Source: a bacterium SCSIO 12643 (GTDB taxonomy: Bacteria; Bacteroidota; Bacteroidia; Flavobacteriales_G; Salibacteraceae). From it: DNA of 64,000 nt. Within the stretch, counting starts at the first letter, position 1; every line of letters begins with the position of its first letter. A model generated the notes under the pieces. It ran no database searches. It was not told where the DNA came from and worked only from the letters and a program-made list of their open reading frames with translations. The stretch lies in assembly GCA_024398135.1 (NCBI GenBank), contig CP073750.1, forward strand, positions 2,542,001 through 2,606,000, given 5' to 3'. A program made the translations under genes and the position numbers. Shown one piece after another: positions 42,737 through 46,288 of the stretch.

Positions 42737-44377
42737 ATGAAAAAGGCATTGATTTTTGGTTTTTTATTCTTTTTGTTTACCCATGCATTTGCTGAAAAAA
42801 AGATAGTAGAAAGTAAGATTTCTAATGTAACCGTTTATCCGGTGGGAGCTATGGTGAACAGAACAGTAAACGTTAAGATTCCTACAGGAACACATACCAT
42901 TGTATTGGATGCGTTAACTGCATCCATTGATCCAAATACCATACAAGTTGAAGGCAAAGGAAACTTCGATATTCTATCCGTGAAGTTTGAACACTTCTAT
43001 CCGTACCAAACAACGAAACCAAAAGGAATCGAATTGATTGAAGACTCTTTAAAAATGTATAGAGATCAACGCTATCTTTTAGAAGCTGAAGACAAAGCTT
43101 TTGATCAGGAAAGACAGATGATTTTAGCCAATCAAAAAATTTCAGGGGCAAACTCTAGTGTATCTGTAGAACAGTTAAATGCAATGGCAAAATATTACAG
43201 ATCGAGATTGAATGAGATCAGTAAAGAAAAGTTGAGAAATAAAAATGAACGAACCAAAGTAATCGCAGAAGAGAATAGACTCTCAGGTACTTTAGCTGGT
43301 ATGAATAATTATAAGTATGAAAAAGTAGGACGCATTCTGGTAGAGACTTCTAGTAAGACTTTAACATCTGCTACATTTAACTTTTCGTATTTTACACATT
43401 TAGCTGGATGGCAACCGAAGTATAATATTAAAGCTAAATCAGATCAGGAGAATATTGATGTAGATTATCACGCATTGGTATATCAGAATACCGGATTGGA
43501 TTGGAACAAAGTGGACTTGGTTCTATCGACTTCAAGACCTACTTACAATAATCAGAAACCAGAATTACATCCATGGTATTTGAGCTTTTATCAGAAAGGA
43601 GCCAAAGCGCAGGGAACCTATGCCTGGTCTTACGGGACAGCTCAGGTTGAAGTAGAGGAGGATATGGAGGCTACACCAGAAGCTGGAAATGTATATTATA
43701 ATGATGGACAATATAAAAAACTAGAGAAAAGGAAGGATGCCAATTTTGTGGGAGCAGGTGTTTTGATGAATGCATTGAATACTTCTTACAAGATTGATCA
43801 GAAGTATACTGTGGTGAGTAATAATACGCAGAAACAGGTATTTATTAAGAACATAAAGATTCCAGCAATGTTTAATCATTATTCTGTGCCAAGTATGGAA
43901 AAAGAAGCCTTCTTAACGGCATCTATTGAGAATTGGGATTCTTATGATTTAGTACCAGGGAATGCAACACTGTTTTATAACAATACTTACGTAGGTAGAT
44001 CGTATATATATTCGAATACAACTGATGATACCTTACAGATTTCTTTGGGAAGAGATCAGGGAGTAAAATTAACCAGAGATAAGGTGCAGGATTTGTGTTC
44101 GCATAAAAAGATTGGAAGCAATATTAAAAAGACATTTACTTATGAATTAGCTGTAAAAAACACGAATAGAGAAGAGATCACTATAGTGATCTATGATCGT
44201 GTACCTGTCTCTAAAATCGATAAGATTGAAGTTACGATTGGAGACATTGCAGGGGCGGAGTTAGATAAAGAAACCGGTATTTTAAAATGGACGAAAACCA
44301 TTCCTGCGGGTGAACGAATGAGTTGGAGATTCAATTATGAGGTCAAGTATCCAAAAGGCGCTAGCATCAATCTGTAA
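42737..44377 (+). CDS. DUF4139/DUF4140 (MuiA-like) exported protein, copy 1
   Basis: The 546-residue protein has a signal peptide (MKKALIFGFLFFLFTHAFAE), an N-terminal DUF4140 domain (IVESKISNVTVYPVGAMVNR, about 22-120), a coiled-coil region (about 95-200), and a C-terminal DUF4139 beta domain (about 205-546). The family is called 'mucoidy inhibitor A' after a Rhizobium protein, but its role in Bacteroidota is unknown. It is followed by a terminator, then by a clear paralogue at 44525. Confidence 0.85.
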   Translation: MKKALIFGFLFFLFTHAFAEKKIVESKISNVTVYPVGAMVNRTVNVKIPTGTHTIVLDALTASIDPNTIQVEGKGNFDILSVKFEHFYPYQTTKPKGIELIEDSLKMYRDQRYLLEAEDKAFDQERQMILANQKISGANSSVSVEQLNAMAKYYRSRLNEISKEKLRNKNERTKVIAEENRLSGTLAGMNNYKYEKVGRILVETSSKTLTSATFNFSYFTHLAGWQPKYNIKAKSDQENIDVDYHALVYQNTGLDWNKVDLVLSTSRPTYNNQKPELHPWYLSFYQKGAKAQGTYAWSYGTAQVEVEEDMEATPEAGNVYYNDGQYKKLEKRKDANFVGAGVLMNALNTSYKIDQKYTVVSNNTQKQVFIKNIKIPAMFNHYSVPSMEKEAFLTASIENWDSYDLVPGNATLFYNNTYVGRSYIYSNTTDDTLQISLGRDQGVKLTRDKVQDLCSHKKIGSNIKKTFTYELAVKNTNREEITIVIYDRVPVSKIDKIEVTIGDIAGAELDKETGILKWTKTIPAGERMSWRFNYEVKYPKGASINL

Positions 44378-44395: not shown

Positions 44396-44426
44396 AAAAA
44401 AAGGGACTGATTTCAGTCCCTTTTTT
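44396..44426 (+). terminator. Terminator between the two DUF4139 genes
   Basis: AAAAAAGGGACTGA and TCAGTCCCTTTTTT form a near-perfect stem around TT, with a T-run. It separates the two paralogues into different transcripts. Confidence 0.9.
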
Positions 44427-44524: not shown

Positions 44525-46288
44525 ATGAAAAAAATGTTGTTAACTCTAATCTGTATGACCTCACTAATACTCTATGCCAAAGAAGGTCAAAACATTGTAG
44601 AAAGTGAAATCTCAAAAATTACAGTTTATCCCAAAGGAGCGGTGATTCACAGAAACGCTCAGGTGGATTTAAGAAAAGGACTGAATACTTTGATCATTGA
44701 TAATTTAACCACGACCGTGGATGTGCAAACATTGCAAATAGGTGGTTTGGGAGATTTTGAAATTCTATCGATGAAGTTTGAATTATTCTTTCCCTACCAA
44801 AAAACAAAACCTAAAGCACAGGAATTGATAGAAGATTCTTTAGAAATTGTTAGTGATGCGTTATTTATCTTAAAACAAGAAAAAGAAGCGCTTTATGAAG
44901 AGTATGCAATGATTTTACTCAATAATAGTTTGTCGAATGATCATGGATTTAGTGTTACAGAAATAAACGAAATGGCTAATTATTATCGTGAAAGGTTTCG
45001 AGATATTGGTGTTTTGAAATTAAGAAATCAGAAAAGAATAGACTCTACTATGATTCAGGAACGTAGACTGAAGTCTGAATTGGATAAAATTGAGCAATCC
45101 AAATTCGAACAGGTGGGGAGGGTTATTGTTGAGATCAATTCGGAGTTCAAGAGCAAAGCATTATTGAAGTGTAGATTCTATACACCAATGGCGGGTTGGA
45201 CTCCTATTTATAATATTAAAGCAACAACCGGGAAGGATGAAATTGAAGTAGATTATAATGCTTTGGTGAGTCAGGAAACCGGAGTGAAATGGGATGAGGT
45301 CAGGTTGGAATTATCAACCACTAAAGCAAATTTGACCAGTCAAAAACCGGAAGTGCGCCCATGGTATTTGGATTATTATTCCTCTTATTCTTTGACGGAA
45401 TATCATAATAAGTTAATTGATAAAGGAAATACATCGGTAAATGGAACTTATGTAGAAGAGGATTTTCAAAACATGGCGGTTAGATCAGCTACTGACGTAG
45501 CGAAAAATACAGCGGGTGTATATTCTGCTGATGGAGGTTCCGGGTATCTAGCTATTGGAGCAAGAACAGATGCAAACTATTATTATATTGATGGAATGAG
45601 GGTTTCTTCAATTCCACCTAATTATTATAGAACATATACACCTTCACAACCTAAGTATGCTACTGGTGAATTGGTGTTCAATGCCTTGAATACGACCTAT
45701 GATATTGAGAATAATTACACCATTTTTAGTCATCAAAACCCAAAACAGGTTTTTATAAAGCAAATCTCAATTCCAGCGAGTTTTAATCATTATTCTGTAC
45801 CGGGAAAAGAACGAGAGTCATTCCTGACTGCTTCCATCTATGATTGGGGTTCATATGATTTAATTCCTGGAAATGCGACTTTGTTTTATAACAATACTTA
45901 TGTGGGAAAAACCTTTGTTTTGACTCACACGCTGGATGATACATTACAAGTTTCTTTAGGGAGAGATCAAAGTGTGGTAGTGGAGCAGAAAAAGATTTCA
46001 GGATTATCAACTACGAAAAAGACGGTGAAGAGCGTTAAGAAGAAACAGGTGTATGAAATCACAGCTCGAAATAATGGAAAGAGTGAAGTGGAGATAGAAA
46101 TTTATGATCGAATTCCGGTTTCAAAAAGAAAAGAAATTGTAGTAACGGTTGAAGAACTGGCAGGCGCAGATTACAATGAAGAAACAGGAATATTAAAGTG
46201 GAAAAAAGTACTTAAACCGGGTGAACATTTGACCTGGAGAATAGAATATGATGTAAAGTATCCTAAAGGAAAAATCGTAAACATATAG
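44525..46288 (+). CDS. DUF4139/DUF4140 exported protein, copy 2, with inserted TonB-plug-like segment
   Basis: From the ATG at 44525 (chosen because MKKMLLTLICMTSLILYAKE is a normal signal peptide; the longer 44486 start adds 13 non-hydrophobic residues) the protein has 587 residues and aligns with copy 1 along its length. Examples are PASFNHYSVPGKERESFLTA versus PAMFNHYSVPSMEKEAFLTA, and GADYNEETGILKWKK. In the middle (residues about 317-362) it has MAVRSATDVAKNTAGVYSAD, then GGSGYLAIGARTDANYYYID and GMRVSS, which copy 1 lacks. This resembles the plug domain of TonB-dependent receptors. The frame is unbroken. Function unknown. Confidence 0.85.
   Translation: MKKMLLTLICMTSLILYAKEGQNIVESEISKITVYPKGAVIHRNAQVDLRKGLNTLIIDNLTTTVDVQTLQIGGLGDFEILSMKFELFFPYQKTKPKAQELIEDSLEIVSDALFILKQEKEALYEEYAMILLNNSLSNDHGFSVTEINEMANYYRERFRDIGVLKLRNQKRIDSTMIQERRLKSELDKIEQSKFEQVGRVIVEINSEFKSKALLKCRFYTPMAGWTPIYNIKATTGKDEIEVDYNALVSQETGVKWDEVRLELSTTKANLTSQKPEVRPWYLDYYSSYSLTEYHNKLIDKGNTSVNGTYVEEDFQNMAVRSATDVAKNTAGVYSADGGSGYLAIGARTDANYYYIDGMRVSSIPPNYYRTYTPSQPKYATGELVFNALNTTYDIENNYTIFSHQNPKQVFIKQISIPASFNHYSVPGKERESFLTASIYDWGSYDLIPGNATLFYNNTYVGKTFVLTHTLDDTLQVSLGRDQSVVVEQKKISGLSTTKKTVKSVKKKQVYEITARNNGKSEVEIEIYDRIPVSKRKEIVVTVEELAGADYNEETGILKWKKVLKPGEHLTWRIEYDVKYPKGKIVNI
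45473..45610 (+). other. TonB-receptor plug-like insert inside DUF4139 copy 2
   Basis: Residues 317-362 of the host protein read like the plug core of Bacteroidota TonB-dependent receptors (TAGVYSADGG, GARTDANYYYIDGMRV; typical plugs have AGV..DGG..IRGAR.DA.YYIDGVRV). Copy 1 has an unrelated acidic stretch at this place. Confidence 0.65.

Follow-up and report, generated by a model that had tools for sequence, protein, structure and literature searches.

What does a piece of a TonB-dependent receptor plug do inside a DUF4139 protein? The question is raised by two tandem genes in a 64,000-nt stretch of the genome of bacterium SCSIO 12643 (contig CP073750.1, positions 2,542,001 to 2,606,000; the whole stretch is called the window below). 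Bacteroidota DUF4139 proteins are, to our knowledge, poorly understood, as are YfbK-type vWA and bacterial alpha-2-macroglobulin (A2M) proteins, which also enter the argument. The relevant features, in window coordinates except for the last line, are as follows.

42737..44377 (+): ORF1, 546 aa, tandem paralogue lacking the module (alignment, Pfam, TIGR02231)
43547..43774 (+): ORF1 linker, residues 271-346, without a confident fold (AlphaFold2)
44525..46288 (+): ORF2, host of the module, 587 aa, DUF4140 + coiled coil + DUF4139 (Pfam, TIGR02231)
45335..45685 (+): ORF2 linker, residues 271-387, no predicted fold (AlphaFold2, pLDDT about 30)
45386..45403 (+): YSLTEY, degenerate, at the position of the Ton-box-like strand FVKVAY of receptor R0 (by position only)
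45401..45604 (+): plug-derived module YHNKLIDKGNT...YYYIDGMRV, 68 aligned residues (own-genome match to R0, alignment A2)
45449..45622 (+): Pfam Plug match, residues 309-366, plug positions 12-70 of 107 (profile; six-frame scan within one codon)
L040:3064-6945 with L148:1482-6952 (+): R0 triad, comprising the receptor, then a 1450-aa exported protein, then a PorV/PorQ protein

The host protein, the segment and its source

ORF2 passes the curated cut-offs for DUF4140 (51.7 bits, cut-off 27), DUF4139 (151.6 bits, cut-off 31.8) and TIGR02231, the 'mucoidy inhibitor MuiA family' (222.6 bits, cut-off 112.6). We chose ATG 44525 as its start; the list of open reading frames begins at TTG 44486. By eye, the N-terminus resembles a signal peptide. 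ORF1 is 48% identical to ORF2 overall and lacks the module, as the first-pass annotation had observed. In a tree of protein bodies, ORF2 groups with ORF1 and a protein of the same-genus genome G002 (support 100/100), and the tree does not separate these two as its nearer relative (89/38). Each of two same-genus MAGs has a single DUF4139 match, which is plain, so that ORF2 is seen in just one genome. Judging by the intervening DNA, ORF1 and ORF2 may be transcribed apart; promoter and terminator scans yielded site numbers no higher than in shuffles. Between the two genes, an inverted repeat with a T run (gggactg-attt-cagtccc-tttttt, window 44396-44426) is seen by eye and is not in the terminator scan list.

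The plug-like segment had been placed at 45473-45610. This range covers the last two thirds of the module, but the homology begins 24 residues earlier, at 45401, and it ends with IDGMRV at 45604 or perhaps with SSIP. The frame is open, the peptides quoted in the first-pass annotation are present, and the Pfam Plug profile matches the whole protein with E=0.0018, although the score of 19.2 bits does not reach the cut-off of 23.9. The profile search suggested for the segment alone (94 aa) does match, with E=1.1e-4, but its 23.2 bits are still slightly below the cut-off. A six-frame Plug scan of the genome gave 33 places, including the module at 22.2 bits, again below the cut-off. Since the Pfam score itself falls short, homology to a receptor plug rests on the match to R0, a 1294-aa frame that is the best own-genome match after the module itself (99.3 bits, E=4.3e-28, 80% identity over 69 aa). 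The module profile (A2) also matches the plugs of two receptors with solved structures, HasR (E 0.005) and Cir (E about 9e-4; 9nn6, 2hdf), in agreement with the proposed origin from a TonB receptor. Next in the own genome comes an NTE-bearing YfbK-type vWA protein of 652 aa (50% over 46 aa, E=3e-9), and four other places all have E of at least 0.5; matches other than R0 are at 30-50% identity. Identity of the module to the receptors of G000, G001 and G002 is 79%, 74% and 79%, respectively.

The slightly low Pfam score of the segment could suggest chance resemblance or an assembly artefact. Both are excluded for practical purposes by the R0 match (E=4.3e-28), by homologous inserts that exceed the cut-off in DUF4139 and vWA proteins of other genomes, and by the assembly, in which the genome is a single 4.1 Mb contig. 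The in-frame segment is thus, as originally proposed, an insertion and not an error.

What ORF2 carries is only part of a plug. Positions 12-70 of 107 are present and the second half is absent; the module has no NTE, the IRG stretch is short by one residue in the alignment, and the strand at the Ton box position (SYSLTEY) is degenerate. Therefore, a folded plug is unlikely in ORF2. The Ton box position was set by comparison with Bt1763, whose Ton box VDEVVV comes after the NTE according to the accessible part of PMC7782687. No beta-barrel profile matched ORF2 at E<=10, and the remainder of DUF4139 comes after the module.

In AlphaFold2 models of ORF1 and ORF2, the linker is flanked by two confident halves (block means mostly 70-94). 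Modelling of both paralogues had been proposed as a check for an ordinary loop; the linker is of low confidence in both, while the module is found only in ORF2. Low confidence is partly expected, as no homologous alignment rows cover the insert. The insert site is thus a variable loop throughout the DUF4139 family, with plug pieces in some members only. A Foldseek search with the DUF4139 fold gave no match at E<=0.001, the best being MacA and AP2 mu (E 0.008-0.01), and phmmer gave 0 matches of ORF2 to the PDB at E<=0.1. With VIA-align, residues 91-195 matched helical structures (Z up to 11.0), and the region around residues 484-577 gave AP-mu/Ig-like rows (Z 7-8), the latter arrangement being noted as common. 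We derive no function from these fold comparisons.

R0 contains the Pfam families CarbopepD_reg_2, CarboxypepD_reg and Plug (NTE 63.9 bits, Plug 39.7 bits), and in the about 1000 residues after the plug no barrel family is reported at E<=0.05. By its sequence it appears to be an Oar-like TonB-dependent receptor, the barrel family being unreported at this threshold. In the R0 triad, the PorV_fam match scores 139.8 bits (cut-off 90), and the exported protein is a putative T9SS substrate whose sorting tail (TIGR04183) scores 19.6 bits, below the cut-off of 23. The triad gene order is maintained in 12/12 genomes examined, the source genome and 11 others. An R-type receptor of at least 96 bits is found in 33 of the 35 genomes of the family, some as short or cut frames (1149 aa in G002, 824 aa in G020, 274 aa in G023); none was seen in G019 and G034. 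BamG of the F. johnsoniae BAM complex, as presented in the accessible part of PMC12611786, is a candidate identity for R0.

Recurrence in DUF4139 linkers and other host proteins

The family of the source genome (35 genomes, 14 genera) has 46 DUF4139 matches in 33 genomes. The module profile lies within eight of them (G000, G012, G014, G019, two in G020 and two in G023), that is, in 6/35 genomes and 3/14 genera; the overlap of intervals was judged manually, and the 46 matches include fragments. In G049, from another family of the class, the linker holds an NTE and a plug under the cut-off. In other families, the G042 linker holds an NTE and the G055 linker a plug piece under the cut-off, while those of G045 and G050 have short stretches resembling their own receptors. 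The inserts of G013 and G008 consist of the NTE only. In G005 (L094:1225-3018 (-)), the linker contains a plug stretch of a different receptor type, which we take to be SusC-like (Pfam Plug 53.8 bits), so the DUF4139 linker also accepts other pieces.

The survey of homologues suggested in the first-pass annotation thus found, among the DUF4139 proteins scanned, 11 inserts with the NTE above the Pfam cut-off (L085, L086, both of L087, L088, L089, L090, L091, L092, L093, and L130) and two with Plug above it (L089 and L094 only). Plug is below the cut-off in ORF2, L079, L086, L087 (677 aa), L088, L092, and L103, and unreported by Pfam in L060, L085, L087 (686 aa), L090, L091, L093, and L130. Plug pieces claimed in proteins of the last group rest on resemblance to receptors, G045 (L060) being, together with G050 (L103), the weakest case. 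The notion of an insertion hotspot holds insofar as the linker repeatedly takes CarboxypepD_reg and plug pieces, but plug pieces occur in some members only. In particular, 40 linker rows from 39 of the 41 named contigs had no obvious module by eye (49-78 residues by BLAST ends), and hence a plain linker is the usual state. The linker list comprises the 30 best loci, 20 taken mostly for long frames, and a few duplicates, and no rate was derived from it. V0 and the DUF4139 copies of g13 are decayed. There is no stretch common to all copies, as some DUF4139 linkers hold the NTE and box only and others RG...YIDG only; a single common docking motif is therefore unsupported.

The plain DUF4139 linkers of G001 (L077 / L150) and G002 (L078 / L149) hold the stretches GARADAYYYES and NRSDGYYVADI, reminiscent of GARSDANYYYIDG. 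These very short stretches are possible plug remnants.

The module is also present in other protein families. YfbK-type vWA hosts were found in G000, G001, G002, G004, G012, and G049, with Plug above the cut-off in all but G000. In G002, an A2M protein with bMG10 (1889 aa, L074:4487-10153 (-)) has an NTE and half a plug directly before the A2M domain. In addition, G042 encodes a protein with an NTE and Plug that is macroglobulin-like by eye, with no such profile match, and in G014 the C-terminal third of a SIMPL/DUF541 protein (L136:1545-2294 (-)) includes a short plug-like fragment, HYFIDGIKVRGSSSLP, about 16 residues long. Finally, barrel-less stand-alone proteins with an NTE and a whole plug occur in G008 (L137:1172-1990 (-), by eye) and G013 (L138:825-1565 (-), Plug 37.3 bits). 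Frames of 238-252 aa with a module match in G003, G011, G015, G018, and G025 may be stand-alone plug proteins too.

Genome matching, age and constraint

We compared 22 non-receptor copies with 16 receptors. The top-scoring receptor came from the same genome for 11 copies, with about 1.4 expected (binomial p 2.1e-8, a rough value, as same-genus copies are not independent), and from the same genus for 16 of the 22, including ORF2. The ORF2 scores are 266 with the receptor of G002, 259 with R0, 249 with G001, and 180 with the next genus. The six copies with a top receptor from another genus are two stand-alone plugs (X8, X13), D5 and D42, which carry pieces of another receptor type or the NTE only, and two G020 copies. 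In this set D19 has no own receptor. The 22 do not include X14 (27 residues), for which the own receptor shared first place.

The module tree gives a similar picture. With 12 genome or genus groups it requires 13 changes, against a minimum of 11 and a mean of 24.7 over shuffles (0/200 of which were as low). With five host types it requires 15, against a minimum of 4 and a mean of 17.6 over shuffles (13/200 as low). Among the four groups with at least three rows, modules cluster by genome and not by host in three. These are g1 (three receptors, three vWA proteins, the A2M protein, and ORF2; one group, 100/99), G049 (receptor, DUF4139, and vWA; one group, 100/100), and g11 (one group, 24/25 with the long row D19 and 100/98 without it). 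The fourth, g13, is not one group in either tree, and its copies do not group clearly with their own receptors. Of five genomes with two rows, G042, G045, and G055 pair weakly (60-76 bootstrap), while G008 and G013 are unpaired; in both of the latter, the second row is a stand-alone plug protein. The module trees do not include D5, D42, X14, and the too short D50.

By contrast with the modules, the DUF4139 bodies of D12, D19, D20a/b, D23a/b, and D49 form one clade (94/93). A single ancient insertion into DUF4139, with the nine DUF4139 module rows together, is rejected (AU p 2.1e-44). Module monophyly is likewise rejected for the seven rows with bodies in the clade (AU p 4.3e-8), and for six of these seven after dropping long, short, and odd rows (AU p 5.8e-8). 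For the five vWA rows, a single ancient insertion is rejected as well (AU p 1.3e-64, and 1.9e-81 after row dropping). These p values apply to groups partly chosen after the sequences had been seen, with D23a/D20a on a long branch. These comparisons show that such modules were acquired or homogenised repeatedly, across several lineages and families of host protein.

Homogenisation might mean that recent or ongoing gene conversion with the receptor gene makes the copies alike without any function. The clustering of modules by genome in g1, g11, and G049, while the DUF4139 bodies form one clade, is what such conversion could produce. However, the identical residues share codons little beyond chance. 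The ORF2 module and R0 are identical at 54/68 residues, and the codon is the same at 32/54 of these. In the longer local alignment (D0-R0), the same codon is used at 33/57 = 0.58 of identical residues vs. 0.50 expected from R0 codon usage; the counts for D49-R49 and D12-R12 are 44/123 and 53/113, the chance expectation having been computed for R0 only. As recent conversion would leave synonymous sites alike, it is disfavoured, and we consider this account quite improbable, although old conversion events are possible.

The same comparison bears on age. For the ORF2 module and R0, the NG86 estimates are dN 0.172 and dS 1.36; since maximum likelihood (ML) dS estimates reach 42, this dS is a lower bound and the resulting dN/dS an upper bound. 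Four-fold sites are identical at 10/25 positions, so that synonymous sites are near saturation, and this is similar to the identity between the receptors of the three genus genomes (11/28, 14/29, and 11/31). In a neutral simulation that uses the G002 receptor module in place of the ancestor and assigns half of the distance to the ORF2 branch, the expected residue identity is 0.20 (99th percentile 0.32). At a deliberately low distance, which takes a four-fold identity of 0.61 as the upper bound, it is 0.49 (99th percentile 0.62, maximum 0.72 of 2000). The observed identity to the G002 receptor, 54/68 = 0.79, exceeds both expectations. The retention of 54/68 residues, as against near-saturation at synonymous sites, means that the copy dates back about as far as the genus itself and has been held by selection at the protein level. 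Its substitution pattern thus shows the ORF2 module to be an old, constrained copy.

Constraint of this kind must be weighed against the possibility that the insert is a spacer or a local folding piece between the two DUF4139 halves. The linker would then take any exported-protein sequence, to be kept for stability or length. A linker that is variable and modelled with low confidence in both paralogues fits this, and so do the 40 named-contig rows with no obvious module, the lack of a minimal motif common to the copies, and the inserts that are NTE only (G013, G008) or derive from another receptor type (G005). Still, a spacer needs no particular sequence, yet 54/68 residues were kept over a time that saturated synonymous sites, and the inserts come mostly from one receptor lineage, many of them resembling the resident version. 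We therefore regard a spacer as possible, if on the unlikely side.

Possible roles and comparison with known systems

The reading that we prefer, with a probability of roughly 0.4 for the whole, is the following. ORF2 arose within its genus by tandem duplication of an envelope protein of the DUF4140/DUF4139 type. A copy of the N-terminal module of the resident Oar-like receptor, namely the segment after the Ton box and the first half of the plug, entered the disordered linker in the middle of its domain. The module would serve as a docking segment, either for the receptor itself or for a periplasmic partner that also binds the receptor N-terminal region. Such docking would hold the DUF4139 protein at the receptor / PorV-family unit, against the inner face of the outer membrane, and the match to the resident receptor would persist because the partner is shared. 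As far as the function of the module can be read from sequence, docking to the partners of the receptor is the most likely one. One option raised in the first-pass annotation was that ORF2 may interact with TonB-receptor partners. The selection acting on the copy makes this plausible, as does its similarity to the receptors of the genus.

A different role would follow if the copied Ton box allowed TonB-ExbBD to pull or position the YfbK-type vWA, A2M, and some DUF4139 proteins. A hydrophobic, Ton-box-like strand after the NTE is kept in five vWA, two A2M-type, and five DUF4139 copies listed (by eye; weak in D23b). There are also precedents in the accessible parts of two papers: the Ton box of Bt1763 mentioned above (PMC7782687) and the Oar N-terminal region, which binds TonB1 (PMC6434023). 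On the other hand, the strand is degenerate in two proteins, ORF2 and the DUF4139 protein of G045 (NYSMQKY), and by eye absent in D19, D23a, D20a, and D55; all these assignments are by position only. TonB coupling as a general account thus seems improbable. It is more credible for the vWA and A2M proteins, while TonB pulling of ORF2 is doubtful. Because the box is degenerate in ORF2 and absent in other DUF4139 linkers, docking is favoured over TonB coupling for ORF2.

The docking reading may be extended to the other hosts. In Bacteroidota, one near-universal Oar-like receptor would then lend its N-terminal module to unrelated envelope proteins (DUF4139, YfbK-type vWA, alpha-2-macroglobulin, and SIMPL), making them clients of the TonB- or PorV-linked machine that the receptor itself uses. 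Kept matched to the resident receptor, the module would act as an address tag, specific to each genome, for the inner side of the outer membrane. We think this broader scheme rather unlikely. Even so, the repeated reuse in related bacteria suggests that the pieces do a job outside the receptor. The pieces of a receptor N-terminus shared by several lineages independently are a testable lead to the partners of DUF4139, vWA, and A2M proteins, and a plug piece under selection outside a barrel bears on what plug segments can bind.

The NTE, the plug, DUF4139, and Oar-type receptors are already known, and Pfam reveals plugs in vWA and macroglobulin proteins. The repeated, genome-matched reuse of a receptor module appears to be new, with none reported in the literature searched. 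We found no report of plug pieces in DUF4139 proteins, or of their genome-matched recurrence, in the openly accessible papers searched, other than preprints. Searches linking DUF4139 to Bacteroid* returned nothing, the DUF4139 papers found being eukaryotic by their titles. The combination of YfbK, CarboxypepD, TonB, and macroglobulin gave no literature, and papers on the plug domain with vWA or macroglobulin included none relevant by title and the beginning of the abstract. In the PorV/PorQ context, TonB is unmentioned in the accessible part of PMC12618676, and neither TonB nor the plug is mentioned in PMC7323717. The accessible part of PMC7782687 terms the role of the NTE ahead of the plug unknown.

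Compared with PF07715 plugs and Oar-type receptors, the ORF2 module is homologous over about plug positions 12-70, with R0 as its closest own-genome relative, but ORF2 has no barrel, NTE, or full plug, and the module sits in a DUF4139 linker. ORF2 differs from other DUF4139 / TIGR02231 proteins in its plug insert, the linkers of 40 named relatives being plain. With the YfbK-type vWA and alpha-2-macroglobulin proteins it shares a module from the same receptor lineage; unlike ORF2, they keep the NTE and Ton-box-like strand, and their module is N-terminal (vWA) or precedes the A2M domain. vWA folds have been proposed as force transducers in proteins that are membrane-tethered (2025, PMC12204202); the accessible part of that paper does not establish their identity with the module-bearing vWA proteins. 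Finally, Oar of M. xanthus is required for the secretion of PopC, which is reduced by Ton box substitutions (PMC6434023, accessible part). R0 shares with Oar the architecture of an NTE with CarboxypepD_reg, a Ton box, and a plug, but differs from it in adjoining a putative T9SS substrate and a PorV/PorQ protein.
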